Shown: positions 1-42,032 of the stretch, one piece after another
How the letters are laid out: each line of letters begins with the position of its first letter
Position numbering within the stretch: the stretch's first letter is position 1
Assembly: GCA_016786785.1 (NCBI GenBank)
Contig: JAEUVR010000338.1
Span: 1-44,411, forward strand
From: Chitinophagaceae bacterium
Lineage (GTDB): Bacteria > Bacteroidota > Bacteroidia > Chitinophagales > Chitinophagaceae
Direction of reading: 5' to 3'
DNA length: 44,411 nucleotides
Program-made: the position numbers and the translations under genes
The notes under the pieces: model-generated
The model's input: the letters and a program-made list of their open reading frames with translations, nothing else
The model's database searches: none
Told to the model about the DNA's origin: nothing

Positions 1-516
1 GATGCGAACGGTAACGCCCGAACCGGGCGTGGCGCCGGCCGCAACCACATCTATCCCCGGCGTACGCCCCTGCAGGGCTTGCTGAAAATTGGTCAGCGGA
101 AGCTCTGATATCTCTTTGGAAGAAATAGAAGCTACGGCCCCTGTTACGTCGGCGCGACGTTGCGTGCCATACCCCACGTTCACCACAACGCTCTGCAGCA
201 TCATCGCATTCTCCTGCATCACTACATTGATCGCGCTTCGCGAGCCAACAGTTACCTGCTGATCTGCATAACCGATGATCGAAAAAACAAGAACGTCTGA
301 AGGAGCGGCCTGAATGCTGTATTTCCCATTCTCATCAGTGGATGCGCCTCGGGAGCTGCCTTTTACGATAATGCTCACTCCTGGAATAACGTTATTCGCG
401 CTGCTATCGTAAACCGTCCCCGTAATATTTTTTAAACTTTGCGCAAGTAGGGAAAGAGGAACTGTAGCAATAAAGACAGTCCAGAAAAGCAAAAGAAGAA
501 GATGTCTGATTTTCAT
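1..516 (-). CDS. SusC/RagA family TonB-dependent receptor, N-terminal part (3' end outside the window)
   Basis: This is the first 172 residues of an outer-membrane receptor of the SusC/RagA family, which imports glycans, peptides or other large nutrients together with a SusD lipoprotein. The start at 516 gives a clear signal peptide (MKIRHLLLLLFW... ending near LLAQS, about residue 26). It is followed by a carboxypeptidase-regulatory-like domain (about residues 29-113, with ITGTVYD, PGVSI and DENGKYSI) and the start of the plug domain, which holds the family signature near VVNVGYGTQRR and the ALQGRTPGIDV segment. The reading frame is open to base 1, so most of the barrel and any SusD partner lie to the left. 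A three-codon ORF (ATG CAA AAA TGA) ends in an ATGA overlap with this start codon. The family call is secure; the substrate cannot be judged. Confidence 0.93.
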   Translation of the reverse strand, partial: MKIRHLLLLLFWTVFIATVPLSLLAQSLKNITGTVYDSSANNVIPGVSIIVKGSSRGASTDENGKYSIQAAPSDVLVFSIIGYADQQVTVGSRSAINVVMQENAMMLQSVVVNVGYGTQRRADVTGAVASISSKEISELPLTNFQQALQGRTPGIDVVAAGATPGSGVTVRI

Positions 517-21918: not shown

Positions 21919-24900
21919 ATGAAATTGTTCAAGCGTATATTGTTGTGGGTCGTGATATTTAGTCCGCTGTTCCTCGCCGCTCAATCGAATATTACCAGGG
22001 TAGAATATTTCATCGATAGAGATCCTGGTTACGGTAAGGCGCATATGCTCCCTATTAACGCTGCGCAGGATCTTAACAATATCGCCCTTCCCATCGATCC
22101 GGATACGATCAAACCCGGCGCTCATTCCTTATATGTCAGGGCGCTCAACGCCAATGGCGCCTGGAGCATGACCTTTAGCAAACTCTTTTACAAACCTTAT
22201 AGCGCGCCTTCCCTACCCGATCCCCCGGTTAATATTGTCCGGATAGAATATTATATCGATAATGATCCCGGGGCCGGCAACGCTATGCCCTTAAGCTTTA
22301 CCCACAATACCAATTTGTCCGATCTTATCATCCCTGTCGCAACATCTTCGTTGACCCCGGGCTCGCATACGCTGTATGCGCGGGCGCTGAATGCATCAGG
22401 CGTATGGAGCATGGCGCATAAATGGTCGTTCGTAAAACCCTTTGATGAAGAACACCCGCCTCTGCCCGACCCGGTCAATATCGACCGGATCGAATATTTT
22501 ATTGATAAAGATCCCGGTTATGGATTGGCGACAGAAGCGCCGTTTACAGCAGGCACAGATATAGCCAACCTCGTAATCACGCCTAATATAGATACGCTTA
22601 CGCCCCGCCTGGGACTGCATACTGTGTTTGTCAGGGCAAGAGATATAGACGGCAAATGGGGCATGACCCATTCGTTTGTCTTTACCATCATGCCCGAAAC
22701 CGAATTGTCTATTACCATCGGCGATATTACCGACGAAGTATGCGCCGGCGGCACGATCTATATTCCTTATACGGTGAGCTCCCCGCTCAACCCGGGCAAT
22801 ATATTCACCGCACAACTCTCGGGACCGAACGGCATGTTCGGCGCTTCCCCGCGGGTCATCGGCGCGCTTGCCGCCTCGGAATCCGGCGTCATTACCGCAG
22901 TTATTCCTGCAGATATAGGAGCCGGTTCCTCATACCGTATACGGGTACTCGCTTCTTCTCCTAAGGATACCAGCGAGGTATCGGGCGAAACCTTAACCAT
23001 TAACCGCGGGCCGGGAACAGGATTTTCTATTTCAGGGAATGCGACCCCCTGCAGCGGGCCTGAAATATATACTATCCGCCAAGCGCCTGCAGGAGAATAT
23101 ACATTTAACTGGTCGGTATCGGGAGGCGGCGAACTGCAAGTATCCAACGACACGGCTCGCATTAACTGGACCGAAGCAGGGAATTATATTGTCCAGTTGC
23201 AACTTACTGCATGCGGGAAAGAAGCGACAAAAACATTCCCGACATATGTAGCGCATTCCGTTCCCGCCGAAGCGCCTGTTATATCAGGGCCCGCAGGCAG
23301 GACGCTCCATGCCTCCGAAGCGCCGGCGCACTGGGGTTATCAATGGATAAAGGACGGGATAGATATTCCGGGCGCCACCGAAGCTTCCTATCATGCCGCC
23401 GCCAGCGGAAATTACCAGGCGGCGTTTACCAATGCCTGCGGAAAAGGAACAGCGTCAACCACCCTGACAATGGCTGCCAGCGCTGTATCGCAAACCATCA
23501 GCTTCCCCGATGTGTCGACGCAGAACATGGCCATAGGACTTTTTGTGAAACTGGGCGCTACCAGTAGTTCCGGGCTCCCTGTTTCGTACAGTATTGTCCA
23601 TGGAAATGGAAGCATATCCGGCGATACACTATGGATCAATGCGGCAGGAACCATCCAGGTAAGGGCAATACAGGCAGGCAATGAGACGTACGATATTGCT
23701 GAACCGGTTACAAAAAGCATTACTACGGTAAAAAGCACGCCGGCGATCAGTTTCCCTGATATCGCGCCGAAAAAGTATGGCGGAGATCCCTTTCCGCTTA
23801 GCGCCTCTTCTACCTCTGGAGAAAGGGTTTTGTACACAGTATTGTCGGGGCCCGCCACGATAACCAACGGCCTGTTGCGGCCAACAGGAGTGGGAACAGT
23901 ATCCGTGCGCGCTTATCAGAACGCTACGACAAGTTATAATGCCGCTGCTCCTGTAGAGAAAAGTTTTTGTATAGAAATAGATGCCATCGCTTCAGCGATC
24001 GGGGGACCGGCAACGGCTTGCCCAGGCGGATTTGTCTATTCCGTGCCCGCTATAAACGGCGCAACCTATACCTGGTCCGCCAGCGGCGGCGCTTCCATTA
24101 CAGGTTCCGGAAATACCGTAACCGTGAACTGGCCCGCTAACGGCATATACCAATTGAGCGTACGAGCCTCCGGCGGCTGCGGGTCGCAAAGCGAGACGCT
24201 GCAATCCAATGTAGTGATCAATACGGCTGTCACACCGGGACCCGCGACCAATATGCTGCCGGCAAATGGCGCCCTGAATGCAGTTATGCCGGTGAAATTA
24301 TCCTGGGCGCCCGGAAGTAATACCGACATGTATGATGTTTATGTATGGCCGGAGGATGAATCCCGGCCGTCTCAGCCTTTCTTCGCCGGTATTACAGCAA
24401 TAAATCAGACTATTGCCGCAGGGCTCGACGAGGGCCGCCTGTACAAATGGGAGGTGTTATCTAAAAACACCTGCGCATCTAATAGCAGCCCCGTTCAAAA
24501 TTTCAGCGTCGACTACGATACTGACCTCCCCGATCTTCGTATGCTTGCCATCGAGCACGCCGGGGAAGGTAATGCAGGAGAAACGATAGAGGTACGCTGG
24601 ACGGTCAAGAACGAAGGGCTGAAAGGCACAGGCAATAACCAATGGAACGACTTCGTATACCTTTCATCGGATAAAAGCCTGAATATATCGACAGATATTC
24701 TTTTAGGTAAATTCCAGAACCAGACCTATCTGAACCCGGGAGAGAGTTATACGCAGACCAAAACCCTGACTATTCCCGGAAAGATCTCAGGACCTTACTA
24801 CCTGTTCGTGATTACAGACAATAACGAAGCCGCCTGTCAGTTGGGGGGTAGCTGTGAAATAGAAAATGGATTAAGGACCGCTTCAAATTATGGCGTGCGC

Positions 24901-27900
24901 GAGTCAAACGAGATCAATAATTATAAATACGGGGATATCAGCATCAGCTATGGCAAACTGCCTGACCTTGTAGTTACTTCAGTAGCTGCGCCATCCCTCC
25001 TTTTCGGAGGAGATACCATTTCCGTTACTTACAGCGTAGCCAATCATGGCGACCTGACGGCCTATGGCATAAAAAGAAAACAATGCCCGAACATAAGGGC
25101 GCTGAGAAGCTGGATAGATAATATCTACATCTCGCTAGACTCGGTATTTGATAAATCGAGCAGCACGTTGCTGGCTTCCGGCGGCTTTGGTTTCAATATT
25201 GACTGCGACAACAATATCTATTACGATCCGCTTTATCAGGATTTTATTCCACCGGAAGGCGCTTACGGCAGAATTATAAAAAAAATACCTATTCCGCATA
25301 ATTACTTCGGCAAGTATTATATCCATGTATATACCGATGAACTGCAGAATGTGTTTGAAGGCTTATACGATGTAAACAATGTAGGCACCAGCAAGGGAAT
25401 TACTATTAATCTTCGTCCGCCGGCTGACCTGGACCTCACGCATGTATACACGCCGGATGTCGCCGTGTCCGGAGGAAAAGTAACGGTGCGCTGGAATGTA
25501 CAGAACAACGGGGCAAACAAGCCTTTTGAAAGCATATGGCGCGACAGCATATTTATTACCTCCGGCAGCGCGTTCAACTACGCTGAAGTGATTGCCCGGG
25601 GCGCATTTACCTATACCGAAGGCAGGAAATTCGGCTCTTCAGACGGTTATACCGGGCAGGCTACGCTGAATATCCCCGAAGGCGTATCGGGCGCCTATTA
25701 TGCGCACGTAAAAACAGATGCAGGAGGCAAAGTGTTTGAATACGATAAGGAACATAACAACTCAGACGTATCAAATGCTTTCCTGGTCACGTTGGCTACG
25801 CCTGTTGACCTGGTAATATCCTCCGTAACAGCGCCGGACTCTGTACGGGCCGGCAACCCCTTCAGGCTGATCCTGAAAATTGCCAACCAGGGAAGCGCGG
25901 CAGTAACCAGCCAGTTTTATAATAGAGTGTATGTAACGCCCGATTCCATGCTGAAGTCGGGATTATACAGCCTGGCCAACGTTCCATTTACCAGGGGACT
26001 GCTTGCCGGTCAGCAAAAAGCGGATACCCTGAACCTAACGCTGCCCGACGCCTATGCAGGGAAATCAGTCTACTTCATGGCAGTGGCAGACGCCAACAAT
26101 AATATCTACGAGCACGAGGCGGAAGACAATAACTCCTCTACCAGAGCGCAGCTTGAAGAGCCCGGCAAAACTTATGTAGGCGCCAAAACCCCTGTTGCAC
26201 ATGCGGATATCGTAGTGACTAACCTTACCGGATCCCTGGCTCCCGGCTCCAGGAAACTGACGCTGAGTTGGAAGATTGTAAATGAAGGCGCGGGCGCCAC
26301 TACTAAAGCGATGCGTAATCGAATTTATTTATCAGAGGATAATATCTTCGATCAGCATGATACGGAACTGACATCTGTTGCTCTTGGTAAAATATTAGCC
26401 CCGGCAGAAGCGGCGAGCCAGAGCATGGAGGTGGATCTGGCTCCTGAACTGTCGGGCAATAAATTCATCATTGTGCGCGCCGATGCAGATGAAATGGTGA
26501 CCAATGAAGCAGACCGGTCGAACAATACGGGCTCGACGCCGATCAATATACCCGTATTATCCCCCTCGAACCTATTGGCGTATTTACGGGAACCCTTCCC
26601 GGACGATGTTTATGCAGGCGGCGAGTTTTACCTCCATTATACGGTAGTTAATACCGGTTCAGGAACCACCTTTATGAACCAATGGTACGATGGCTCATAT
26701 TTTAGTGAAACGCCTTCCGTACCGGCAGGCGCCCAGGCTGGATATACCAGGCATACAAACGCGCTGGCGCCGGGAGCCGCTTATTCAGATAGTATACGGG
26801 TAATCGTACCCGCTAATCTTCTCGGCAACTATTACTTGATATTGAATACCGACAGCAAACGACAAAATTATGAAGCTGCCGACACAGCCAACAATATAAC
26901 CTCGATTCTTGTCAATATACAGCCTCCCCGGCAAACGGACCTGGCGGTGACAAACGTACAGATACCCTTATCTGCAGTTACAGGCAAACCGGTACTGATC
27001 GATTACACCGTCAAAAACCAGGGCAATCATCCGGTGAAAGCGCCCTTAACTGATGGAGCCTACCTCTCCGCCGATTATAGCTTTGAAAGCGCTGTCGACA
27101 GGCTGTTGGGTTCCCAGTTGCGGTCCAATATCCTGATCGAACCGGGAAACAGCGTAACCGGCCAGATCAAGGGAATAGCGCTTCCCGAAACGGATGGCGA
27201 CTACACGGCTATTGTACGAACCAATATTACCAATAAGATCAGCGAGACCAACCTGGAAAATAATCTGCTGGCAAGCGATGGCGTGATGACAATAAATGCC
27301 GTTCCGCTTAGTTTAGGGGTAACCAAAGAAGATGTACTACGCACACATGCGGACAGCGCCAGGTATTACAAGATAACTGTGCCTACAGGACTTGATATCC
27401 TGGTTACGCTTAATAGCTCGCTTTCGTCCTATGCCGGCAGGAACCTCATCAGGATGGCGTATAACAGGTTGCCCTCAGAATATATTTATGATGCCGCCAA
27501 TATCGACCCTTCGACGCTTGATCAGCAACTATTACTTTCTTCTTCCAATGCCGGCGATTATTATATCAAGATCGAAACAAAAGAAGCGCCTTCAAGTCAG
27601 GATATATCCGTGCTGGTAGAAGCCATGCCTTTCTCTATCCTTAAGATGACGCCCGGAACGGCTGGACAGGGAGATATCAGCGCTACCGTATATGGCGCCG
27701 GATTCAGAAATGGAGTAAGGGTATACCTGAAGAAATCCGGCGTAACAGTATCGGAAGCGATAGTGAGATCGTTCGTGAACAGCACGCGGCTTGATCTGCA
27801 ATGGAAACTCAGTAACGTGGCTTTGGGTACATACGACGTGGAGGTAGCAAACCCCGATGGCGGAACGGTTGTATTGAACGGTGGATTGACCCTTGAGAAA

Positions 27901-30900
27901 TCCACAGGTTACCAGCTCACCTTTACGCCCGTCGTTCCCAGCGAAATAAGGGCCGATGGCACGCCGCGTAATTTTATGTTCAAAGGAGTCAACTCGGGCA
28001 ATGTGAATATTCCCGTGATCAGGGGAGATATTTCTTTCGACGCCCGCACTTCTGTGCTGGAAGTAAAATCTGATGGCCCGATATTTAATTATAGCGAATT
28101 TTTCCTGGACTCCGCATATTTTGAACGGGGCGATTACTATGTAAACAACGGCAGGAAATATATTCCGTTTATCGGCCGCAACCTTGCCCCCGGGCAAACC
28201 TTTACCGTGAGCATAACGCTGAAAAACTGGTTTGGCGGCCCCAGCACATTCCCAATCCGGCCGCGACTGTATGGCGTTTCGGCCTCCACTTTCATTCGTG
28301 AACAGGCTGCCAAGATTGAGATCATCCGGCTAGGTATCATAGATGATCCGGAAAGCTTTGGAGTAGATCCCGGAACGGATATTTATATAAAATCCCATAA
28401 CCGGAGCGAGTTCCTGGAAAATGTGCTCGGGTTGTTTATTGAGTCCGGGCTGATGTCGGCCGGGGAAGTAGCTGCTACGCCTATTGACCTGGATTGTATC
28501 CCCTGCCTGCTGGACATAGACACCACGGGAATATCTGAACTGGCAGACGACGAAAACGTATATACCTATAGCCCGGGAAATAGTCCGGGTATCCAAATAC
28601 TCAATCAGAATACCTCGTTCAACAGCGGCGAAAGTTATTTATGGGAGATCAATAAATCCAATTACTGGCCTAACTATACCGGAGCTACCGGTAAAGCAGG
28701 AGAAGACCCGGGATGGGATCTGCTATTTATCAATGGTCAACTTTCTATTGACGCCACGCCGGCCAATCCTTTTAAGGTATATGTACGCTCGTTGTCATAT
28801 GCCGGTTATCCCGGTCAGCTTGCCGGTTGGCGCCCTTCGGCAGACACCTGTTGGGTGATGGCAGTAGCTACCGGCGGCATTACAGGATTTGAAGCGGATA
28901 AGTTTATGATCGATGCGACCAGCTTCCAGGATTACAATAATCTTCGTGGAGGATATTTCTATGTGAGCATTAAAGAAGGGCTGGCAAATCAACCCGATAC
29001 CCTGCTGATGTGTTTCAAAGCGTACAGACCCGGCCTGGGAGAAGATGGCGTTGCCGGCGCTCCAGGGGTATATGGCGAGCCGGGAAGCCCGGGAGGACCC
29101 GGTGGTCCGGGTGATGGAGCTACCCCTCCAGGTAATGGAGGACCAGGAGGGCCAGGCGGAGATGGCGATGGAGGCGTAGGCGGCACAGGAGGCGCAGGCG
29201 GCATCGGGGGAACCGGCGATGGCGGGCCCGGAGGTTCGGGCGGGCCGGGCGGACCAGGTGGCAGTCCAAGTGGACCAGGCGGACCGGGCGGGTCGGGCGG
29301 CAGTCCGAGCGGGTCGGGTGGCAACCCCTCTGGGCCGGGAGGTCCTGGCGGCCCGGGTGGGGCCGGCGGTCCGGGAGGTGCGGGCGGCCCTGGAGGTGCG
29401 GGTGGACCGGGCAGCCCGAGCGGCCCCAATGGTCCGGGCGGCGCCAGCGGGCCGGGCGGCTCGAGCGGGCCTGGCATTTCTTCGGAGACATGTGAGGAAC
29501 TGCTCGCTATGCTATCCATTCACTCCAAGGAAAGCGCAATAGAATACCTGCAAAAACAGGCTGAAAAAGGGTTGAAAAAACTTCTTGGCGGAGGCTGCGG
29601 GGCTGATGCATTGGTGGATTGCGGAAAAACCTTCGGCGGCAGCGTACGCAGACTATCGCTATTCAAACCCAGTACCTGGGTGAGACCCCTGATCGACCCC
29701 TTCCGGTGCGGGTTAAAAATCGGCGACTGCATCAACCAGAAGATCTATGGAAAAAAAGATTATACCGGTTCGGGGATCGTGAAAAACCTGATCAAGGGAA
29801 CCGAGTGCCTGGGCGATCTGAAGGACTGCGCGACCAATGTCGTATTCTGCTCGCATGTTGTATTTTCCAGCGACCCCAATGAAATTATCGGCCCTCCGGA
29901 TTTCGATCCGATGGACATGGTGGCGGGCACAGCTACCCTGCCTTATACTATTCATTTTGAAAATGATTCCCTGCTGGCCAATGCCCCCGCTCAAAGGGTG
30001 GTGATCAGGCAACAGATCGATGAACGCCTGGATCCGCTTTCATTCAGGGTGGGAAGCTTTTCTTTCGGGGGACAAAACTATGAGGCGCCTAACGATCGCC
30101 CGACCTACTCTACTGTGCTGGAGATGGCCGATTCAACCGGGTATAACGTTGAAGTGAACATCGGCGTGGATGTGGTCAACAAAGAACTGATATGGATATT
30201 CCAGACCATAGATCCGGCGACCGGTTTTGCTCCGGTCAATCCGCTGGCCGGCATGCTTCCTGTTAACAATCTGCTGCATGAGGGACAGGGTTATGTAAAT
30301 TATACCATCAAGCCGAAAACCAGCGTACGGACCGGCGATTCTATTCTTGCCAGGGCGGATATCATTTTTGATAATAATCCCATCATTTCTACCAATACCT
30401 GGCTGACGCTGATAGACGCCGGCCGGCCTGTCAGCAAAATCATTCCTCTACCCGGCGAAACAAATAAGACGGCCATCACTTTGCAGTGGAATGGCAATGA
30501 TGACGCACAGGGAGTAGGAATCAGGGATTATTCCCTGTATGTATCTACCAACGGAGGCGATTATCGCCATTATGCGACTGGCATTAATACAACCTCCTAC
30601 ACCTTTGAAGGCATTTATGGCAATAGCTACAGCTTTCTTACCATGGCGATAGATAATGTGGGCAATCCTGAATTGCTGCGCCCGGAAGACGCGGTTACCG
30701 TTTTTGTTTCAAACGCGGCGCTTCCGCTCAGGTGGCTGGATTTCACCGGCGAACTTAAAAACAATAACGTATGGCTTGACTGGGCTACAGCTATGGAATC
30801 GAATACCGGCCATTTTGTAATAGAACGGTCTGAGAATGGGGTCGACTTCACTCCTATAGGCGAAGAGAAAGCCGCCGGCAACAGTACAGTTATTCGCCGG

Positions 30901-31308
30901 TACCGTTATATAGACCTGGATATAACAAGCCTGAAAGCCAAAAAAGTTTATTACAGGTTAAGACAGGTGGATGCTGACGGCAAATTCAGCTATTCGCGGG
31001 TGATCAGCGTAAGCCTTCCTGCATATGCTGATCAGAAGACGGTAAGCGTTTTCCCAAGTCCGTTCTCCAATTATATTACGGTTACGATAGACCCTTCTAT
31101 ACCGGTTACCTCCTCGGATTGGCTAGGATTATATGCTATAGACGGGCGGCTGCTCATACAAAAAAATATCGGCGGCAGAAGCCCTGGCAGCGCCATCGCC
31201 ATCACCGATCTATCCAGGTTAAGCCAGGGAACCTATATCCTGCGAGTGTTCACCCACGATCAAACCTTTAGTCTAAAACTAGCGCATGCGGGACCGTTGC
31301 AGAATTGA
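21919..31308 (+). CDS. Giant T9SS-secreted multidomain protein with CARDB repeats and a collagen-like tract
   Basis: A 3129-residue secreted protein (signal peptide ends LAAQS). In order: three about 80-residue repeats beginning [13 protein letters not shown] (18-260); Ig/PKD-like domains (260-520); an MBG-like domain opening TISFPDV (520-680); a PKD-like domain (694-770); a fibronectin-like domain (774-865); seven CARDB domains (867-1794; e.g. [18 protein letters not shown]); a pre-peptidase-C-terminal-like domain (1795-1900); an IPT/TIG-like domain (1905-1990); unassigned sequence; a Gly-X-Y tract (2373-2520); an eight-cysteine segment (2523-2650); a DUF7619/DUF11-like domain (from DPNEIIGPP); beta domains; and a type A T9SS sorting signal (3040-3129, with [12 protein letters not shown]). 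No enzyme motif is seen. It is most likely a long adhesin or matrix protein. Confidence 0.88.
29038..29480 (+). repeat. Gly-rich collagen-like coding repeat inside the giant protein
   Basis: These bases encode residues 2373-2520, rich in GGP, GPG, GGA and GGS triplets. The first part keeps an unbroken Gly-X-Y register ([21 protein letters not shown]) before an interruption at ATPPG; later blocks are GGPGGP-like. The DNA is markedly GC-rich compared with its surroundings and codon use of glycine varies (gga, ggc, ggg, ggt), so it is not a simple recent microsatellite. Confidence 0.85.
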
Positions 31309-31394: not shown

Positions 31395-31438
31395 AAGAGC
31401 CCGTGCATGAACTGCCCGGGCTTCTTTATTTTTTTATT
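31395..31438. terminator. Shared terminator between the two convergent giant genes
   Basis: AAGAGCCCG (31395-31403) pairs with CGGGCTTCTT (31417-31426) with one bulged T, followed on the plus strand by TATTTTTTTATT. The stop codon of the minus-strand gene (31426-31428) lies in the T-run, so the same hairpin follows that gene too; its T-run on the minus side is weaker. Confidence 0.75.
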
Positions 31439-34400
31439 ATAATCCTTTTCATAATAATACCGGCGACAGTATTAAACCTTATCGTGTACACGCCGTCCTG
31501 AAGATCAGACAGATCAATGACCCGTGCGCCCTCATCCTTGCTGTACACTTTTCTGCCTACTGCGTTATAGACCTCAACAGTATAAATCGTCTCTATCTTG
31601 ATATCAGATAGCAAATTGAATTTCCCGGTCGAAGGATTAGGATAGATCGTCAGATCGGGTAAATCTTCCTGTCGGGATCTTATTGAAATTGCCGGGGAAT
31701 ACTTGAACTTCCCGGAAAGGTCGAGTTGTTTCAACCGGTAATAGGAAATTTCTTCATAAGGATTCGCATCGATATAACTAAACTCTCCCTTAGCCCCTAT
31801 ATCGCCGCCATGAACGCTGGCTATAGTCGTCCAGCGTATACCATCCTTGCTTTTTTCAATCACAAAGTTTGTATTGCCATCATCCGGCAAGGTTCTCCAT
31901 TTCAGGATATTGTTATTGTTTTTTGCCTTGCCTGTCAGGTTCAATGATTCAGCGGGCAATATGATCATCAAGGCCGGGGAGGACAACGCAAATGGCCCGT
32001 AACCGCTAACAGCGGCGGTGGAGACAATGGTTCCCTTTGTCTTGTCGCCTGTTGTTCCTCCAATGCCTTCATCGCGCCATTGCTCCTCGTCCCAGCGCGC
32101 CACGCGTATATTGGTCAACGCTGTTACAGCGCAGCTTCTGGATTCGTCCCAGCTTAAGGTTACCAATACATCGGACAGGCCATTGTCCCGCTGCAGCATC
32201 CAGTACTCGCAACTGCTTATGTTCTCAAGGCTGACAGGCCTGGCGGTTCTATCATAAACAGGGCCGGGATCGGCGGCGATATATTCGGCCGTAAACCGGT
32301 CGGCAATATTTCCCGGCGCAGAGATAGCAATAGGAGCATAGTGATCATTTTTACCAACAGGAAATACAAAAGCGTCATTCCCTATTTTGCTAACCGGTCC
32401 ATCTACAAAGCCGCTATCGCTTGCTCTCACTACCGCGACATTATCTCCGATCGTCAGCAAATTGGAGGCGCTGGAAACCAATATACCTTTGTTAAATGTT
32501 ATGCTTTGGCCTGGCGCATCTAATAAACAGGCAGAGTTCAGGTTGACCATACCAGATGGTTTACTGATCAACAGGGGGCCATTAAAAAAATCCGTGGCGC
32601 CAGACAAATCAAAATGCTGATCGCCCTCGCCATTAAATATCAACTGCCCGTTCCCGCCGTCAAAAGAAGGCAATACAGTAACATTTCCGGCGGCTACAAT
32701 CCGGGCCGTTGAAATACCATCCTGGTAGACCAGGTTATTCAATACTTTGAGCGTATCCCCCGGCGCCGAGGTAATGGTTGAATTAACACAGTTATATAGA
32801 CCATTGAGCGTAAAATTATAGAACCGGGTTTCAGGCAACACATCAATTGTATATGTCCTTGTAGCGCAGGCATGGCTGGGATTGATGATCACCGTGCCGT
32901 TGTTCGCATTAAAAATACCGCCGCCATGCGTAAACAATGTAGCGTTGATATTCCAGTCCCCGCCGATATTCATGGTTCCCGTAGGAGCGGTAAAACTACC
33001 CGCCAATACGCTAAGACCCTGTATGTACAGATCTGTTGTGCCCGATGCAGGCGTTACCGCGCCCGAAGGCTTATTTACTACGATCTGGCAGGTGCGGGCC
33101 GCTTCCGTCGACACAGCATAGGTTTGACTACTAGCGCTGTTCAATATGATCATTCCCGTACCCCCATCGGCATCAGCGTTAACGGTCAGGTTCCCCTTCA
33201 CGGAAAACAACCCGTTAAGGATACCGTCGGTATGGACAAAGTTATTGACAACATGCACCGTATCGCCGGCAGCTGTAGTAATAGCGGAATTAACGCAATT
33301 ATACAGCCCTTTTATTTCTATATTATAAAACAAGGTAGAGGGTAGCACATCCAGCATATAGGTCCGGCTGGCGCAGCTATGACCGGGATTGATGACCGCC
33401 GTGCCATTGTTCGCATTGAATATGCCGCCGTTATGCGTAAACAACGTAGCGTTAGTATTCCAATCTCCGCCGATATTCATGGTTCCCGTAGGAGCGGTAA
33501 AACTACCCGCCAATACGCTAAGCCCCTGTATATAAAGATCTGTTGTGCCTGATGCAGGCGTTACCGCGCCCGACGGTTTATTTACTACGATCTGACAGGT
33601 GCGCCCGGTTCCCGCCGCTACAGCATAGGTTTGATTGCTGGCGCTGTTTAGTATGATCATTCCCGTGCCTCCATCGGCATCTGAGTTAATAGTCAGGTTT
33701 CCCTTCGCTGAAAATATGCCGTTAAGAATGCCATCGGTATGGAAAAAGTCGTTGGCAACATGCACCGTATCGCCGGTAGCTGTAGTAATAGTGGAACTAA
33801 CGCAATTATACAGCCCCTTTATTTCCATATTATAAAACAGCGTGGACGGCAACACATCCAGCGCGTAAACGCGGCTAGCGCAACCATGACCAGGATTGAT
33901 GATCACCGCGCCATTGTTCGCATTAAAAATACCGCCGCCATGCGTAAACAGCGTAACATTAGCATTCCAGTCCCCGCCGATGTTCATGGTTCCCGTAGGC
34001 GCGGTAAAACTACCCGCCAGTACGCTAAGACCCTGTATGTACAGATCTGTTGTGCCCGACGCAGGCGTTACCGCGCCGGATGGTTTATCTATTACAAGCT
34101 GGCAGGTACGCCCGGTCCCCGCCGCTCCAGTATAATTTTGATTACCAGCGCTGTTCAATATGATCATTCCCGTACCCCCATCGGCAGCGGCATTAACGGT
34201 CAGATTACCTTTCACTGAAAACAACCCGTTAAGGATACCATCGGTATGGATAAAATCATTGGCAACATGAACCGTATCGCCGGCAGCTGTAGTAATAGCC
34301 GAACTAATGCAATTATACAGCCCTTTTATTTCCATATTATAAAACAGTGTGGACGGCAACACATCCAGCGCGTAAACGCGGGTAGCGCAACCATGACCAG

Positions 34401-35454
34401 GATTGATGATCACCGCGCCGTTGTTCGCATTAAAAATACCGCCGCCATGCGTAAACAGCGTAACATTAGCATTCCAGTCTCCGCCGATGTTCATGGTTCC
34501 TGTAGGAGCGGTAAAACTACCCGCCAGTAAACTAAAACTTTGAACATATAAATCAGTAGCGCCTGGGGCTGGGGTTACCGCGCCGGATGGTTTATCTACT
34601 ACAAGCTGGCAGGTACGCCCGGTCCCCGCCGCTCCAGCATAAGTCTGGTTACCGGAACCATTCAACACGATCGTACCCATTCCCCCATCAGCATTGGCAT
34701 TAACGATCAAATTCCCTTTCACCGAAAATAAGCCGTTAAGGATACCATCGGTATGGATAAGATTATTAGCAATACGAATAGTATCTGTAACCGAAGCAAT
34801 AGTTGAGCTAACGCAGTTGTATAGCCCCTTTATCTCCATATTATAAAACAGGGTGGACGGCAACACATCCAGCGTATAAACGCGGGTAGCGCAGTTAGGG
34901 CTGGGATTGATCACTACAGAGCCGTTATTTGCATTAAAAACCCCGCCCGAGATAGTGAGGAGAGCTTGATTCAAGGTCCTTAACCCTGTTAAGAGCAGGC
35001 TTCCCGAGCTGCTGGTAAAAGCCCCGCCGGTCAAAACAAACGCGCCTGCGCTACCTATGTTTATGTCGGCGGTCCCGCCCAAAAAAGTTCCCGAATGCTG
35101 CGTATACCCATAGGTTCCCATCACAATAGCAAATCCATTCTGGGTAATCGTGCCGGCATATCCGTTTATCCGGATGCCAAGGACATTTACTGCTGCATCT
35201 ACGATACAGTTTCCATTAAAGGCGTTATCAAAAATAGCCATGTCCGAGGCGCCGGGGACTCCCGCTCCGCCTGCTCCGCCGGAAGTTAACGACCAGTTCG
35301 CGGATATATTCCATCCGGATGGAGTTTGTCCCACCCAATAACGGTCTGTTGCAAGAGCATTAAATGACATTACAATGAACGCAATGATCCAGCATAATGG
35401 CAAGGCTTTGGGAGGGTACATATATTTACATATTACATATCTAAGGGTATTCAT
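31426..35454 (-). CDS. T9SS type A secreted protein with 169-residue tandem repeats
   Basis: A 1342-residue secreted protein. The N-terminus has a hydrophobic signal (PLCWIIAFIVMSFNALA), after which RYWVGQTPSGWNISANWS is a common opening of Bacteroidota cell-surface beta proteins. Codon 1 is at 35454; Met12 (35421) is an equally good start. From about residue 173 a unit beginning FNANNG, with LDVLPSTLFYN, HTDGILNG, GNLTVN and FTAPTGTMNIGGDWN, repeats at residues 173, 341, 510, 679 and 848, the last copy diverged. The C-terminal region includes a beta domain ending with YYRLKQLDLSGKFKYS, then the T9SS type A signal (about 1263-1342: IYPNPSTGKFNLLS, YNAVGRKVY, LQDGVYTIRF). Probably a stalk-like adhesin; no catalytic motif is visible. 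Convergent with the giant gene. Confidence 0.88.
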   Translation of the reverse strand: MNTLRYVICKYMYPPKALPLCWIIAFIVMSFNALATDRYWVGQTPSGWNISANWSLTSGGAGGAGVPGASDMAIFDNAFNGNCIVDAAVNVLGIRINGYAGTITQNGFAIVMGTYGYTQHSGTFLGGTADINIGSAGAFVLTGGAFTSSSGSLLLTGLRTLNQALLTISGGVFNANNGSVVINPSPNCATRVYTLDVLPSTLFYNMEIKGLYNCVSSTIASVTDTIRIANNLIHTDGILNGLFSVKGNLIVNANADGGMGTIVLNGSGNQTYAGAAGTGRTCQLVVDKPSGAVTPAPGATDLYVQSFSLLAGSFTAPTGTMNIGGDWNANVTLFTHGGGIFNANNGAVIINPGHGCATRVYALDVLPSTLFYNMEIKGLYNCISSAITTAAGDTVHVANDFIHTDGILNGLFSVKGNLTVNAAADGGTGMIILNSAGNQNYTGAAGTGRTCQLVIDKPSGAVTPASGTTDLYIQGLSVLAGSFTAPTGTMNIGGDWNANVTLFTHGGGIFNANNGAVIINPGHGCASRVYALDVLPSTLFYNMEIKGLYNCVSSTITTATGDTVHVANDFFHTDGILNGIFSAKGNLTINSDADGGTGMIILNSASNQTYAVAAGTGRTCQIVVNKPSGAVTPASGTTDLYIQGLSVLAGSFTAPTGTMNIGGDWNTNATLFTHNGGIFNANNGTAVINPGHSCASRTYMLDVLPSTLFYNIEIKGLYNCVNSAITTAAGDTVHVVNNFVHTDGILNGLFSVKGNLTVNADADGGTGMIILNSASSQTYAVSTEAARTCQIVVNKPSGAVTPASGTTDLYIQGLSVLAGSFTAPTGTMNIGGDWNINATLFTHGGGIFNANNGTVIINPSHACATRTYTIDVLPETRFYNFTLNGLYNCVNSTITSAPGDTLKVLNNLVYQDGISTARIVAAGNVTVLPSFDGGNGQLIFNGEGDQHFDLSGATDFFNGPLLISKPSGMVNLNSACLLDAPGQSITFNKGILVSSASNLLTIGDNVAVVRASDSGFVDGPVSKIGNDAFVFPVGKNDHYAPIAISAPGNIADRFTAEYIAADPGPVYDRTARPVSLENISSCEYWMLQRDNGLSDVLVTLSWDESRSCAVTALTNIRVARWDEEQWRDEGIGGTTGDKTKGTIVSTAAVSGYGPFALSSPALMIILPAESLNLTGKAKNNNNILKWRTLPDDGNTNFVIEKSKDGIRWTTIASVHGGDIGAKGEFSYIDANPYEEISYYRLKQLDLSGKFKYSPAISIRSRQEDLPDLTIYPNPSTGKFNLLSDIKIETIYTVEVYNAVGRKVYSKDEGARVIDLSDLQDGVYTIRFNTVAGIIMKRIIIKK
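32430..34938 (-). repeat. Tandem array of 507-bp coding repeats
   Basis: The unit start encoding FNANNG falls at about 34938, 34434, 33927, 33420 and 32913 on the minus strand, spacings of 504, 507, 507 and 507 bp. Blocks of more than 100 bases are almost identical between units (for example from CAACCATGACCAGGATTGAT at 33881 and 34388). The fifth unit diverges after about 150 bases. Repeats of this kind expand and contract by recombination and can also be mis-assembled from short reads. Confidence 0.9.
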
Positions 35455-35811
35455 TTATATAAACCACGCTACTGATAAAAAATTGCATACGCATAAACTA
35501 ATTGACTAATATCAAGAACAGCTGCCCTGACGGTATCCATGCTAAGGGCGCTAACCGCTATATATCAATGCCTCCGGCTGCATTTTCAAATCCCGGCGTA
35601 TGCTTTAGAAAGAATAGGAATCGACTACCCGAAGTCCGCTCTATTCAATTTATAAAACAGCCTCATGAAACCATTATTAGCCGTTTCATTTTGCAAGAGT
35701 TACCAAATTGTAAATAAAACATTACCTCATTTTGAACAAATGGTTAACAATGCGATAGTGAAGTTTTCGGCCTGATCTTTCTTTCATATTTGCGGCTTAA
35801 AGAAAATCCAC
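35455..35811. other. Divergent intergenic region ahead of the susC gene
   Basis: A 357-bp region between two diverging secreted-protein genes. It carries one weak candidate -7 box for susC, CATATTTG at 35785-35792 (seven of eight positions match TAnnTTTG), ending 20 bp before the start codon, without a good -33 TTG. A 71-codon plus-strand frame at 35502-35717 has no recognisable product and I do not call it. No ECF sigma or anti-sigma gene accompanies this SusC/SusD pair in the window. Confidence 0.45.
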
Positions 35812-38800
35812 ATGAGAAAAGTTTATGCATTTATACTGATCATCCTGATCAGTAGCATCGTTTTACCTCCAACCTTATCGGCGCAAAATATAATGTCTGT
35901 ATCAGCGGCAGATACTGCGTTTAATCCGGGCCGATCCGGTTCAACAAATTCCCTTGAAGGAAGCGCATCAGCGGCTGACACCGCATTTAATCCCGCTGCA
36001 ATAGCATTTGCTACAGATACGCAGCCATCCTTTCTGAAGAATACGCTGGACCAGGTAGTGGTTACTGCGCTGGGTATACGAAGAGAAGAGAAATCGCTGG
36101 GTTATGCTGCGCAAAGCATCAAGGAAAACGCGGTTAAAGACGCTAAAACGAACAACTGGGTAAACAGCCTGAATGGCAAAGTGCCTGGCTTAAATATTCA
36201 ATCCGCCGGAGCAGGTCCCATGGGATCCTCGAGGATCACGCTTCGCGGCGAGTCTTCCCTAAACCTTGATAATAACCAGGCGTTGATCGTGGTCGACGGC
36301 GTGCCCGTTAGCAGCAAGATCAGCGGAACCGGTTTTACTTCCCATTTGTCGCAGGACAGTCCCGTTGATTTCGGTTCCGATATTTCGGATCTTAATCCTG
36401 ACGATATAGAAAAGATCACCGTGTTGAAAGGCCCCGGCGCCACAGCCTTATATGGCAGCCGCGCGGCTGGCGGCGCATTGATCATCACTACAAAATCCGG
36501 ATCAAGGAAAGGAAAGGGATTGGGTATCACCTATAACGTTAACGGTAGTATGGACAGGGTTAACCGCTGGCCCGACTACCAATTCGAATACGGAGAAGGA
36601 AGAACAGATAAATATTTTTCGTATTTAGATAGCGAAGACGGCCCCAACACGGCAACAGGCGTTGCCGCCGGTCGCGCATGGGGACCTCGTTTCAACGGTC
36701 AGTTATATTACCAGTTCAACCCCAACTCCCCCACTGGGAAGCCGACGGAGCGCACTCCCTGGGTGGCAAACGAAAACTATGTCTCCGATTTTTTCAGAAC
36801 AGGCTTCAGCCTGTCGAACAGCGTTGCCATAGAAGGCGGATCTGATAAGGGCAGCGCCCGCCTATCCTTATCGCATTTGAAAAATGAATGGATATTACCT
36901 AACACCGGCTTCGAAAGAATAAATGCGGCGCTCACAGTAAACCAGAAAGTAACGGATAAATTAAAGATCAACGGTAAAATAAACTATACGCAGAAGAAAA
37001 GCGATAACCTGCCGGCCGTAGGTTACAACAACCAGACGATCATGTACTTCCTGATCATCGGCGCCATGCCCAATGTGCATGCCGACTGGTACAAGCCTTA
37101 CTGGAAACCGGGACTGGAAAATATCGAGCAAAGAAACCCCTTTAACCCCGGGCCCGACAATCCTTATCTCGACCTGTATGAGATGCTGAATAAAATGAAT
37201 AAAAACGGCGTGATCGGAACCTTATCAGCCAGCTATTCTTTCACGGATAAGCTCGAATTAATGGTGAGAAGCGGTATTGACATGTCTTACGAATACCGCT
37301 CCCAGCAACGTCCGTTCAGCATGACCAAATACCCGCGCGGCATGTTTCGCGAACAAAACATATTTAACTATGAATTGAATACGGATGTTTTGCTAACGTA
37401 CAACGACAAGTTCAGCGATGCGCTGAAATACACTGTTACCGGCGGCGCAAACAGCATGAAGCAACGTTATGATTTTGCAGGCATGTATGCCGACCAACTG
37501 GCGCAACCCGGCATTTACCAGATATCCAACAGCCTTGATCAGGCTGTCGCAGATCCCCAGCGCTCTCAGAAAGCGATCAACAGCGCTTATGGCAGCGCCC
37601 AGCTGGCCTTTAAGGAAAAGATCTTTTTGGATATCACCGGACGTAACGACTGGTCCAGCACCCTGCCCTATGGCAATAACTCATTCTTTTACCCATCCGC
37701 AAGCGCCAGCTTCCTGTTAAGCGATATGTTTGTTTTACCCATAAGCATTTCGTTCGCTAAACTAAGGTTCTCATGGGCGCAGGTGGGCAACGATACCCGC
37801 CCCTATCAGACGGGTAAATACTATGATAAGATTTATAGTAACAGTTTCACCAATGCTACTGTGCTATTCAATCCAGACCTGAAACCCGAGATCACTTCCA
37901 GCTTTGAAGCCGGGGCCGACCTAAGGTTCTTCAACAACAGGATCGGAGTAGATGTCGCCGTTTATAATAACAACAGCCGTAACCAGATACTTGCGCTTCC
38001 GCTGGATCCGGTAACCGGTTACTCAAGCGCACTGGTAAACGCAGGTTTGATCAACAGCAGGGGCGCCGAAGTGGCGCTTAGCTTCAAACCGATTGTCAAC
38101 AACAACTTTACCTGGAACAGCGCCATTACCTGGAGCACAAACAGAAGTTATGTGAAGGAACTCCGGGAAGGAATCAACAACCAGATCATCTATAGCCATA
38201 GCGGCAACGTAAATATCGAAGCGCGGGTAGGAGGAAGAATGGGAGACCTGTATGGCAGAGGATTCCAACGCTCTCCCGAAGGAGAGATCATATATTCCTC
38301 TGTTGGCCTGCCTGCTACGCTCGACCCAACCATGAAGAAATGGGGCAACGCCTTTGCCGATTGGAAAGCCGGGTTCCTTAACGAAATCATTGTTAAGCGT
38401 TTTCGCGCAAGCATCTTAATTGACGGACAGAAAGGCGGCAGCATTTATTCGCAAACCAATCATAAAAACAATACGCTTGGCAAAACTAAAATTACACTGC
38501 CTGGCAGAGAAGGAGGAATTGTCGGGGACGGCGTAGTGTTTAACGCAGCCACTCAAAAATATACGCCCAATACCGTAAACGTCTCTGCAAGTTCTTATTA
38601 CGATAACTACTATGCCATAACCAATGCGGAAACCAATATTTTCGACGCTTCATTTATTAAGATCCGGGAGGTTCGCTTCGAATATACCTTACCAGAAGGA
38701 TATCTCGGTAAAATAGTCCAGCAGGCAAGCATCGCCATCTACGGCAGGGAGTTATTCAACTTTACCAAATTCCCCGGTTTCGATCCGGAAGGAGGGAACC

Positions 38801-38889
38801 TTAATAGCGGAACGCTTACCCCTGGCGTTGAACTCACACAGTTCCCGACCGCAAGAAATATGGGCGTCAACTTAACATTCAAATTTTAA
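35812..38889 (+). CDS. SusC/RagA family TonB-dependent receptor lacking the N-terminal regulatory-like domain
   Basis: A 1025-residue outer-membrane receptor. The signal peptide ends near LSAQ (residue 25). Normally a carboxypeptidase-regulatory-like domain of about 80-90 residues follows, but here residues 26-78 form a short low-complexity stretch with SAADTAFNP at 31-39 and again at 53-61. The receptor then resumes with the TonB-box-like LDQVVVTALGIRREEKSLGYA and the plug domain (NSLNGKVPGLNIQSAGAGP, DGVPV, ITVLKGPGATALYGSRAAGGALIITTKSG), followed by a full barrel ending in NLTFKF, the C-terminal aromatic needed for BAM insertion. The gene ends five bases before susD, so they form one operon. 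Substrate unknown; the downstream phosphodiesterase suggests a phosphoester-containing nutrient. Confidence 0.93.
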   Translation: MRKVYAFILIILISSIVLPPTLSAQNIMSVSAADTAFNPGRSGSTNSLEGSASAADTAFNPAAIAFATDTQPSFLKNTLDQVVVTALGIRREEKSLGYAAQSIKENAVKDAKTNNWVNSLNGKVPGLNIQSAGAGPMGSSRITLRGESSLNLDNNQALIVVDGVPVSSKISGTGFTSHLSQDSPVDFGSDISDLNPDDIEKITVLKGPGATALYGSRAAGGALIITTKSGSRKGKGLGITYNVNGSMDRVNRWPDYQFEYGEGRTDKYFSYLDSEDGPNTATGVAAGRAWGPRFNGQLYYQFNPNSPTGKPTERTPWVANENYVSDFFRTGFSLSNSVAIEGGSDKGSARLSLSHLKNEWILPNTGFERINAALTVNQKVTDKLKINGKINYTQKKSDNLPAVGYNNQTIMYFLIIGAMPNVHADWYKPYWKPGLENIEQRNPFNPGPDNPYLDLYEMLNKMNKNGVIGTLSASYSFTDKLELMVRSGIDMSYEYRSQQRPFSMTKYPRGMFREQNIFNYELNTDVLLTYNDKFSDALKYTVTGGANSMKQRYDFAGMYADQLAQPGIYQISNSLDQAVADPQRSQKAINSAYGSAQLAFKEKIFLDITGRNDWSSTLPYGNNSFFYPSASASFLLSDMFVLPISISFAKLRFSWAQVGNDTRPYQTGKYYDKIYSNSFTNATVLFNPDLKPEITSSFEAGADLRFFNNRIGVDVAVYNNNSRNQILALPLDPVTGYSSALVNAGLINSRGAEVALSFKPIVNNNFTWNSAITWSTNRSYVKELREGINNQIIYSHSGNVNIEARVGGRMGDLYGRGFQRSPEGEIIYSSVGLPATLDPTMKKWGNAFADWKAGFLNEIIVKRFRASILIDGQKGGSIYSQTNHKNNTLGKTKITLPGREGGIVGDGVVFNAATQKYTPNTVNVSASSYYDNYYAITNAETNIFDASFIKIREVRFEYTLPEGYLGKIVQQASIAIYGRELFNFTKFPGFDPEGGNLNSGTLTPGVELTQFPTARNMGVNLTFKF

Positions 38890-38894
38890 TCGCC

Positions 38895-40367
38895 ATGAAC
38901 AGACTAATGATACTGGCATCGATCTGTTTGATCATAACAGGATGCACGAAAAATTTTGAAGAAATAAATACCGACCCTAACAGGCCAAAAACCATTACGC
39001 CGGGCGTAATGCTTGGACAGCTGCAGTACCGGATGGTGAATACGACCATTAACGCAGCCAAAAACTTCACGCATCAGTTAATGCAGGTCGACGCTCCCCG
39101 CTCCAGCCCCGGAGGCGGAGGCTTGCACAGGTATGTGATAAACACGGATGCCGGAATATGGAACAGCATGTACGGTTATCTTACCGATGTGGAAGACATA
39201 TACTATATGGCCGATTCGCTGAAGGAGTATAACTACAAAGGCATTGCGCTATTGTACAAAACATGGGCCTATTCCATATTAACCGACCTGTACGGCGACG
39301 TTCCTTATTCCCAGGCTACGCAGGCCACGAAGGGAGTCTTTCAGCCCGGTTTTGATAAACAGAAGGATGTCTATATACAATTATTGAAAAACCTCGATAC
39401 GGTCAATAGTATTTTAAATACCGGCGCCGCATTACGTTATGGCGGCGACCTGGTATACAACGCAAACACGCTTTCGGGGTCCACAAACCAAGGTATTGTA
39501 AAATGGAAAAAATTCGCAAACTCTCTCAAACTACGATTGTTGTTAAGGATCTCAAAGCGCGATGGAGAACTGAACATTTCGCAGCAGATCAATGAGATCC
39601 TGTCGAACCCTGAAAGCCGGCCCGTATTTGGTTCCACGGCTGACGATGCGATCCTGAAATACCCCGGCTCATTTCCTTATTTTAACCCTTTCTATAATGC
39701 GCGCCAGCTTGATTGGAGAGAGGGATCTTATTTTTCGGAGTTCTTTATGAATAAACTAAACGAGGATGAAGATCCCCGGAGGGCCATCTGGTCGTTCCAG
39801 GTAATGGTAAACGGGGTTCCAACATATACAGGCATCCAAAGCGGATATCCCACCACGGTAGAATACCAGGTGGGTAAAAACTCCAGCTATAACGACGCCT
39901 TGAAAACATCGCCGCAGCTCGGCGTCATGATGACCTACGCCGAAGTGGAATTTATCAAGGCCGAGCTCGCGTTAAAAGGATTTTCAACAGGCAAAACAGC
40001 GCAAGAACATTACGAAAACGGCGTCCGCGCTTCAATGACGCAATGGGGGGCTACGCTTCCCGCCGGCTTTTTGTCGAAACCAGGCGTGAGCTATAATGAA
40101 AGCGGCTCTGCTGAAGAACAACTGGAGCAGATCATGCTGCAAAAATATTATGCGTATTTCTTTGTAGATTACCAATCCTGGTTTGAAAAGAACCGAACCG
40201 GTTATCCCGTATTGCCAAGAGGCGCCGGCATACCGGTCGAGAACCAGTTTCCCAGCCGCGCGATGTATCCGTCTTATCTTCAGTCATTGAACGCGGGAGA
40301 ATTAAAAAAAGCAACCGAGTCGATGGGAGGAGATCTCCAGGAAACAAAGCTCTGGTGGCAGAAATAG
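38895..40367 (+). CDS. SusD/RagB family nutrient-binding lipoprotein (SusD-like_2 group)
   Basis: A 490-residue surface lipoprotein that caps the SusC barrel and binds its nutrient. The lipobox is IITGC with Cys17. The mature start (TKNFEEINTDPNRP) and the stretch VMLGQLQYRM are typical of the SusD-like_2 (PF12771) group, which often accompanies receptors for non-glycan or unknown substrates. KTWAYSILTDLYGDVPYSQA in the first third is the family's conserved TPR-like helix, and the C-terminal WFEKNRTGYPVLPRG is the usual closing motif. It is five bases downstream of susC and 141 bp upstream of the phosphodiesterase gene. No truncation is seen. Confidence 0.92.
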   Translation: MNRLMILASICLIITGCTKNFEEINTDPNRPKTITPGVMLGQLQYRMVNTTINAAKNFTHQLMQVDAPRSSPGGGGLHRYVINTDAGIWNSMYGYLTDVEDIYYMADSLKEYNYKGIALLYKTWAYSILTDLYGDVPYSQATQATKGVFQPGFDKQKDVYIQLLKNLDTVNSILNTGAALRYGGDLVYNANTLSGSTNQGIVKWKKFANSLKLRLLLRISKRDGELNISQQINEILSNPESRPVFGSTADDAILKYPGSFPYFNPFYNARQLDWREGSYFSEFFMNKLNEDEDPRRAIWSFQVMVNGVPTYTGIQSGYPTTVEYQVGKNSSYNDALKTSPQLGVMMTYAEVEFIKAELALKGFSTGKTAQEHYENGVRASMTQWGATLPAGFLSKPGVSYNESGSAEEQLEQIMLQKYYAYFFVDYQSWFEKNRTGYPVLPRGAGIPVENQFPSRAMYPSYLQSLNAGELKKATESMGGDLQETKLWWQK

Positions 40368-40508: not shown

Positions 40509-42032
40509 ATGAAAAGAATCCTCAGCATACTCTGCTGTTTTACCGTAATTGCTGTTCATGCACAGCAGAAAAATTATCGCACCTTAATATTTTTCTTTGA
40601 CGGGCTGCGTCCGGATTATATCACAGAGACGGGCATGCCCAACTTATTTGCATTCAGCAAGTCCGGGGCATATGGCAAACAACATCATAGCGTATTCCCC
40701 ACCGTTACAAGGGTTAACTCCTCTTCTTATTCTACCGGCAGCTATCCAAAGACGCATGGAATAATGGGAAATACCGTCTATTTCCCGGAAGTGAACCCGG
40801 TAAAGGGTTTGAATACAGGCGAGGCCGAAAATCTTCAGCAGATAAATACGGCCACCAACGGCAACTTACTAACGACGATTTCTATTGGCGAGGTATTGCA
40901 ACAGGCGGGAAAAAGAATGATGGTGTTCAGTTCCGGATCAACCGGACAGGCTTTATTGCAAAACCATAAGGTAAGCGGCGGCGCTATCATCAACCCGGAT
41001 ATGATCCTCCCCGAATCTTTCAGGGAAGAAGTATACCGGCAGATCGGCCCGGCGCCAAAACCCGCCAAACCCAATCGGGCAAGGCACGAATGGACCACAG
41101 ACGCGCTGATCAAATTCGGATTGGTTGACGACGGCCCGGAAGTATGCGCCATTTGGTTATCTGATCCCGACGGAGCCGCTCATGCCGATGGCATGGGCTC
41201 GCCCGCTGCAGTAGAATCCATTAAAATTGTCGACGAGCAGTTCGGCAGGGTCATCAATACGTTAAAGCAGAAGAACATGGAGAACGCGTTCAATATCATT
41301 GTCTCCACGGATCACGGGTTCGTAACCTATCTCGGGGCCGAAAACCTGGCTACCCAGTTGATCAAACAGGGATTGAAACAAGATAGCGCCTCACAGGACG
41401 TGGTAGTTGCCGAAGGAGCGATCTATGTAAAGGACCATGATAAAAACAAGATCCAGGCTATCGTTAGCTATCTACAGGCCCAGCCTTCTGTTGGAGCGAT
41501 CTTTACAAAAGAGAAACGCCCCGGAAGCAATGAAGGATGGGTCAATGGAACCCTTTCATTTTCCGCTATTCACTGGAATCATAAGGACAGGGCCGCCGAC
41601 ATCCTGGTCGATCGCAACTGGAATGACGAAAAGAATGAAAAAGGATATGCGGGATCGGCATACTCCAGGGGCGTTGCCGGACATGGCGGAATAAGCCCCT
41701 ATGAAGTGCATATTGCTTTGCTCGCTTCAGGGCCTTCGTTCAAAAAAGCCTACTCCAGCGAGATCCCTACCAGCAATGTCGATATCGTTCCGACCGTGCT
41801 GTACCTGCACAATTTATCCGTTCCGTCCTCGATGGATGGCAGGATCATGTATGAGTTGCTTTCATCAGGCAATAAAAGCTCTGTCCCGAAGCTCAGGAAA
41901 GAGAGGACAGAAGTCTCGGCCAATTATAACGGCGGCATTTATAAAGTCGCGCTTGAACGTTCGATACTGGACAATAAATACAAATATGTTGATTTTGCAA
42001 CTACGTCCAGGACGGCCTCTGCTGATAAGTAA
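40509..42032 (+). CDS. Secreted nucleotide pyrophosphatase/phosphodiesterase-like protein (alkaline phosphatase superfamily)
   Basis: A 507-residue exported hydrolase of the type I phosphodiesterase/nucleotide pyrophosphatase family, which cleaves phosphodiester or pyrophosphate bonds using two zinc ions. The signal peptide ends at about residue 18 (AVHAQ). Metal and catalytic residues are in place: D31 in FFFDGLRPDY, nucleophile T67 in FPTVTRVNSSSYSTG, the D and H in LSDPDGAAHADG, D and H in VSTDHGF, and the last histidine in GVAGHGG. The C-terminal part is of normal length. It follows susD with a 141-bp gap and shares its strand, so it may belong to the same locus and process the imported substrate. 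Exact substrate (nucleotide, phospholipid head group, other phosphoester) is not decided by sequence. Confidence 0.88.
   Translation: MKRILSILCCFTVIAVHAQQKNYRTLIFFFDGLRPDYITETGMPNLFAFSKSGAYGKQHHSVFPTVTRVNSSSYSTGSYPKTHGIMGNTVYFPEVNPVKGLNTGEAENLQQINTATNGNLLTTISIGEVLQQAGKRMMVFSSGSTGQALLQNHKVSGGAIINPDMILPESFREEVYRQIGPAPKPAKPNRARHEWTTDALIKFGLVDDGPEVCAIWLSDPDGAAHADGMGSPAAVESIKIVDEQFGRVINTLKQKNMENAFNIIVSTDHGFVTYLGAENLATQLIKQGLKQDSASQDVVVAEGAIYVKDHDKNKIQAIVSYLQAQPSVGAIFTKEKRPGSNEGWVNGTLSFSAIHWNHKDRAADILVDRNWNDEKNEKGYAGSAYSRGVAGHGGISPYEVHIALLASGPSFKKAYSSEIPTSNVDIVPTVLYLHNLSVPSSMDGRIMYELLSSGNKSSVPKLRKERTEVSANYNGGIYKVALERSILDNKYKYVDFATTSRTASADK

Follow-up and report, generated by a model that had tools for sequence, protein, structure and literature searches.

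A natural SusC/RagA-family transporter without the N-terminal extension in a Chitinophagaceae bacterium and its sister species

An N-terminal extension (NTE, a CarboxypepD_reg-like domain, PF13715) is presented as a SusC feature in a study of BT1763 of Bacteroides thetaiotaomicron, where its function is called unknown (PMC7782687). According to that study, the NTE of BT1763 forms a seven-stranded barrel by NMR, and BT1763 lacking it (residues 3–76) failed to grow detectably on levan within 24 h, with expression at about 25–50% of wild type (PMC7782687). Oar without its NTE was, on the other hand, reported at wild-type level in the outer membrane and still supported PopC secretion; the same work describes transporters with no extra N-terminal domain as the commonest kind of TonB-dependent transporter (68%) and the Oar-like architecture as predominant in Bacteroidetes (PMC6434023). 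The opposite outcomes of these two deletions make a naturally NTE-less SusC of interest, and none was found in a literature search covering titles and abstracts, with most subscription journals outside its scope. Transporters such as BtuB also have no NTE and consist of a signal peptide, a short tail, a TonB box, a plug and a barrel. They are mostly not SusC proteins and have no SusD lid.

The window considered here, that is, the whole stretch of 44,411 nucleotides of Chitinophagaceae bacterium DNA that was analysed, contains an open reading frame of 1025 aa (35812–38889, + strand) that encodes a SusC/RagA-family TonB-dependent transporter without an NTE (Table 1). The protein passes the TIGR04056 cut-off without the NTE (499 bits against a curated value of 368.25), in a match that spans model positions 76–981 and leaves the first 75 positions of the model unmatched. 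Pfam recognizes the plug (PF07715, 68.8 bits) and the beta-barrel (PF00593, 83.7 bits), and the top-scoring solved chain is BT2264 (5fq6_B, E 4.8e-150). In the TonB box region T85, A86, L87 and G88 are invariant across 40 aligned proteins, and the presence of the box sequence points to a putative TonB-dependent transport. Relatives number 72 in the genome collection, with best-segment identities of 32–89%, mostly 60–76%. A promoter and terminator scan of 35400–36100 gave nothing above shuffles. The plug, barrel, TonB box and adjacent SusD gene are those of SusC/RagA proteins, and the difference lies in the absence of the PF13715 NTE described as usual for SusC (PMC7782687), which makes the protein an NTE-less variant of the family. 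It shares the layout of BtuB-type transporters but, unlike these, its NTE-less state is nested among NTE-bearing relatives. It also shares with the engineered NTE deletions of BT1763 and Oar a receptor that has lost the NTE and kept the TonB box (PMC7782687; PMC6434023); those are laboratory constructs, whereas this deletion evolved, with the receptor body under strong purifying selection. The other SusC of the window (1–516, minus strand) has the NTE sequence when its translation is read by eye, as an earlier sequence-only reading of this DNA had stated.

Table 1. Features of the NTE-less SusC gene and the two genes downstream of it (window positions).
Feature	Positions	Strand	Remarks
Signal peptide	35812..35886	+	Residues 1–25, end LSAQ; cleavage site inferred from the sequence by reading
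N-terminal tail in the place of the NTE	35887..36045	+	Residues 26–78; predicted unstructured
SAADTAFNP copy 1	35902..35928	+	Residues 31–39
SAADTAFNP copy 2	35968..35994	+	Residues 53–61
DTQPSFLK	36016..36039	+	Residues 69–76; same in window and sister species; shortly ahead of the TonB box
TonB box DQVVVTA	36049..36069	+	Residues 80–86; sequence resemblance to Bt1763 DEVVVTG (PMC7782687)
Plug domain PF07715	36094..36477	+	Residues 95–222
Beta-barrel region	36478..38886	+	PF00593 match at residues 447–777
SusD-like_2 lipoprotein, presumed SusC partner	38895..40367	+	PF12771, E 4.8e-107
Type I phosphodiesterase/nucleotide pyrophosphatase	40509..42032	+	PF01663, E 2.1e-37

The NTE was present in 187 of 189 distinct SusC N-termini and missing only from the window protein and from its sister in the species UBA2791. 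A first set of 113 distinct N-termini was obtained from 120 loci after removal of L103 (not a SusC), L078 (match starting at residue 258) and five duplicates; it comprises 67 of the 72 genome-collection loci plus 46 from the own genome, genus mates and other members of the family and order, and PF13715 was matched by Pfam (E up to 0.01) in 111 of them. A further 76, left from the next 96 loci after removal of 20 duplicates (56 of 60 hand-picked, non-random places and 20 of 36 from wider searches), all matched a local NTE profile built from 109 NTEs, at 49.5–102.6 bits. Conversely, the first 126 residues of the window protein gave no Pfam family at E up to 0.01, and the sister protein gave none even with E up to 1. 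A remnant of the NTE was sought with the local profile in six frames of 35200–36150, in six frames of the sister and in both tails, and the best score was 0.3 bits (E about 1), compared with 61 and 76 bits for the positive controls. The proposal that a short tail stands here instead of a carboxypeptidase-regulatory-like domain is therefore upheld by the absent PF13715, by the lack of any remnant in six frames and by the same state in the sister species.

Two of the 111 PF13715 matches were partial, one running off its contig (L107) and one lying below the Pfam curated cut-off (L063). The latter was considered as a third NTE-less SusC and rejected, since the NTE is there and is interrupted by stop codons or a frameshift; the stop codons within the NTE region of this SusC, from a Cytophagales MAG (L063:5500–6200), represent a broken gene or a sequencing error. 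Seven other apparently short N-termini (L057, L067, L094, L014, L019, L024 and L026) were also rejected, because their alignment began early and each has at least 99 residues ahead of the plug boundary. A record titled Alphaproteobacteria (L071) carries a SusC near-identical to that of Runella (L043) and is probably a mislabelled or mis-binned assembly. In a family-wide search, 328 of 394 genomes matched at an E of 1e-30 or better; with up to six candidates scored per genome, and with matches starting at residues 21–58 in some genomes (e.g., G351 and G097) set apart, those running from residue 1 among the matches listed came from the own genome and UBA2791 only.

The UBA2791 protein comes from a separate assembly, is 89% identical to the window protein and has the same NTE-less architecture. 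In a tree of receptor bodies (70 rows out of 99 full-length relatives, identity of 38% or more) the two proteins form one clade (SH-aLRT 100) that is nested among NTE-bearing SusCs, and the exact placement of this clade among its neighbours is an open fork. Because both NTE-less proteins fall into a single fully supported clade within NTE-bearing relatives, the simplest account would be a single loss of the NTE in the common ancestor of these two Chitinophagaceae species.

The tail was modelled with AlphaFold from an alignment of 40 sequences, and the same set with L033 placed first served for a matched NTE-bearing control. Residues 12–78 of the window protein had pLDDT below 50, with blocks of 25–27 over residues 21–70 and no strands, whereas the control showed a seven-stranded domain at residues 30–98 with blocks of pLDDT 74–81, in agreement with the barrel reported for the BT1763 NTE (PMC7782687). 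The model is suggestive of a disordered tail and is not proof of it; low pLDDT in the tail is partly expected because one other aligned sequence alone covers it. Overall confidence was modest in both models (64.7 for the window protein and 64.0 for L033), and the plug region of the control was also poor, with much of residues 102–260 below 50.

Selection was compared with a custom Nei-Gojobori count between the window and sister genes, a single pair with high synonymous divergence. dN/dS was 0.045 in the receptor body (residues 77–1025), 0.025 in the TonB box plus plug and 0.38 in the tail (residues 26–76), and a nonsynonymous change had roughly eightfold higher odds in the tail than in the body (p about 3e-13). 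The plug and barrel are thus intact and strongly constrained, and the gene has been kept while its tail is loosely constrained. Inside the tail, dN/dS was 0.26 for motif 1, 0.54 for the linker, 0.05 for motif 2 and 0.28 for residues 62–76, each piece having 6–11 synonymous sites and the value for motif 2 resting on 7.0 nearly saturated ones. Nonsynonymous changes were fewer at motif sites (5 on about 38 sites) than elsewhere in the tail (22 on about 70; Fisher p = 0.04, uncorrected and with rounded site counts), a signal of constraint drawn from 17 codons of a single sequence pair. The earlier claim that the peptide is kept by selection is weakly supported by this deficit, but the tail as a whole is loosely constrained and the first copy of the sister keeps five of the nine positions.

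The repeat itself is as it had been described: SAADTAFNP occurs twice in the tail, and the two copies differ at 5 of 27 bases, all third positions and all synonymous. When residues 26–76 were shuffled 50,000 times at constant composition, no exact nine-residue repeat arose (the longest had 7 residues), and the repeat of the window is beyond chance. In the sister, where 10 of 1000 shuffles were as good, the repeat is still detectable, with copies that read SSDTTLNP and SSPDTAFNP; all four copies share S, D-T and N-P. Between the copies of the window gene 5 of 7.0 synonymous sites differ and none of 20.0 nonsynonymous ones, a synonymous difference at least as large as that of orthologous codons of the two species (body pS 0.53). 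Since the copies have diverged to this extent and both are recognizable in the sister, this internal duplication is old, in line with the earlier opinion that it was not a fresh one; its core is perhaps weakly constrained. The core, DTxxNP, is found twice in each of the NTE-less proteins, in none of the 187 other N-termini and, outside those two N-termini, nowhere else in the 99 full-length relatives. The expected recurrence of the motif in homologues holds for this core in the sister and fails for the letter-for-letter peptide, which was found in the window genome only. One more exact DNA match to the motif occurs in the own genome (C277:7006), in frame in a large non-SusC protein. This protein is presumably Rhs/YD-like, to judge from a reading of its sequence. 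The match was rejected as a functional link, as it shows no connection to SusC.

These observations are best accommodated by a natural, working NTE-less SusC whose tail acts mainly as a flexible tether ahead of the TonB box, a reading that we consider likely; the cleavage site, the use of TonB, the substrate and the tether role are what we infer for this protein. After cleavage of the signal peptide, some 50 flexible residues with abundant Ala, Ser and Thr would lie as a tail in the periplasm ahead of the TonB box. No folded domain would precede the box, as in ordinary NTE-less TonB-dependent transporters, and TonB would bind the box and pull the plug so that a SusD-delivered substrate could be imported; this substrate may be an organic phosphate that the adjoining phosphodiesterase has cleaved. 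The doubled S-x-D-T-x-x-N-P peptide would serve as a spacer more than as a signal, with constraint that is at most weak. Two points count against a tail that is a pure tether. An NTE-less SusC would not be expected to work unless compensated, because BT1763 without its NTE failed on levan, and by analogy this outcome favours a functional tail (PMC7782687). Additionally, the occurrence of DTxxNP twice in these two species only and their identical DTQPSFLK may indicate more than a spacer.

It seems unlikely, on the whole, that the doubled S-x-D-T-x-x-N-P stands in for the NTE as a short linear docking motif, with two copies giving avidity and with a target such as TonB, a factor of outer-membrane assembly, a chaperone or another envelope partner. 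A repeat beyond chance in one species and detectable in the other, a core found twice per NTE-less protein against none of the NTE-bearing N-termini, the fewer changes at motif sites and the low dN/dS of copy 2 would all be consistent with docking, and compensation is plausible given the harm done by NTE deletion in BT1763 (PMC7782687), but the partial match of the sister's first copy, the roughly eightfold faster evolution of the tail than the body and a signal of 17 codons in one pair at an uncorrected p = 0.04 speak against it. The docking or signalling peptide proposed by the sequence-only reading goes unsupported, with the core absent from 187 other N-termini and a third DNA match of the own genome lying in a non-SusC protein. 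No need for such a motif is known among ordinary NTE-less transporters.

It appears rather improbable that a duplication left the two copies, which lie 66 bases apart, as a neutral relic, with their identity due to slow drift or to convergence in an Ala/Ser-rich stretch. The tail does evolve fast, 11 Ala and 8 Ser make up its 51 residues, and the flanks of the copies have little in common by eye except a Ser two residues before; however, the concentration of differences between the copies at synonymous sites is unlike neutrality, and the core has been retained in the sister. Quite improbable, in our opinion, is that the lineage swapped a folded NTE for a doubled S-x-D-T-x-x-N-P motif doing the job of the NTE, e.g., bringing in a factor for envelope assembly or one particular TonB; if true, the function of the NTE would be reducible to a contact the size of a nonapeptide, whose partner could then be identified. 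The SAADTAFNP peptide in itself is probably of small interest. That a misassembly dropped the NTE, as the sequence-only reading had warned, or that the start codon is wrong, is highly improbable: the draft genome consists of 464 contigs and its contamination is estimated at 6.1%, but the architecture recurs in a different species, from a separate assembly, whose tail DNA has diverged strongly and whose upstream sequence is recognizable, an in-frame upstream stop lies merely 12 and 4 codons from the two starts, and the NTE is absent from every frame nearby.

A SusD homolog lies downstream of susC in at least 61 of the 72 genome-collection loci and a phosphodiesterase homolog is present in at least 27 of them, UBA2791 included in both counts and some contig flanks being cut. 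As NTE-bearing relatives often have the same gene order, the loss of the NTE is not coupled to a change of neighbours, and near relatives with and without the NTE in the same gene setting provide a clean comparison for testing if the NTE aids biogenesis, selects a TonB or can be dispensed with. By analogy, the SusCD pair possibly takes up organic phosphate as a PusCD-like system. The PusCD systems of Flavobacterium are reported to act in phosphate utilization and to be induced at low phosphate, and they resemble the window locus in their genes: PusCD pairs adjoin a phosphomonoesterase or phosphodiesterase gene and the SusCD pair of the window a phosphodiesterase gene, whereas PusD1 and PusD2 are pf07980/pf14322 proteins and the SusD of the window belongs to PF12771 (PMC8115612).

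With regard to TonB itself, the own genome gave one TonB_C domain match and 14 SusC matches, and three genus mates gave 3, 7 and 2 TonB matches, all from incomplete drafts; a reading of TonB choice from these counts was set aside because the drafts are too incomplete. Divergent to susC, a 1342-aa protein (31426–35454, − strand) ends in a type IX secretion tail (PF18962) and contains TMNIGGDWN four times at a spacing of 169 residues (offsets 319, 488, 657 and 826), the mark of long internal repeats. Further upstream, a 3129-aa open reading frame (21919–31308, + strand) includes at 29284–29475 a collagen-like Gly-rich tract (GPGGPGG...) encoded by G+C-rich tandem repeats of 18–36 bases.
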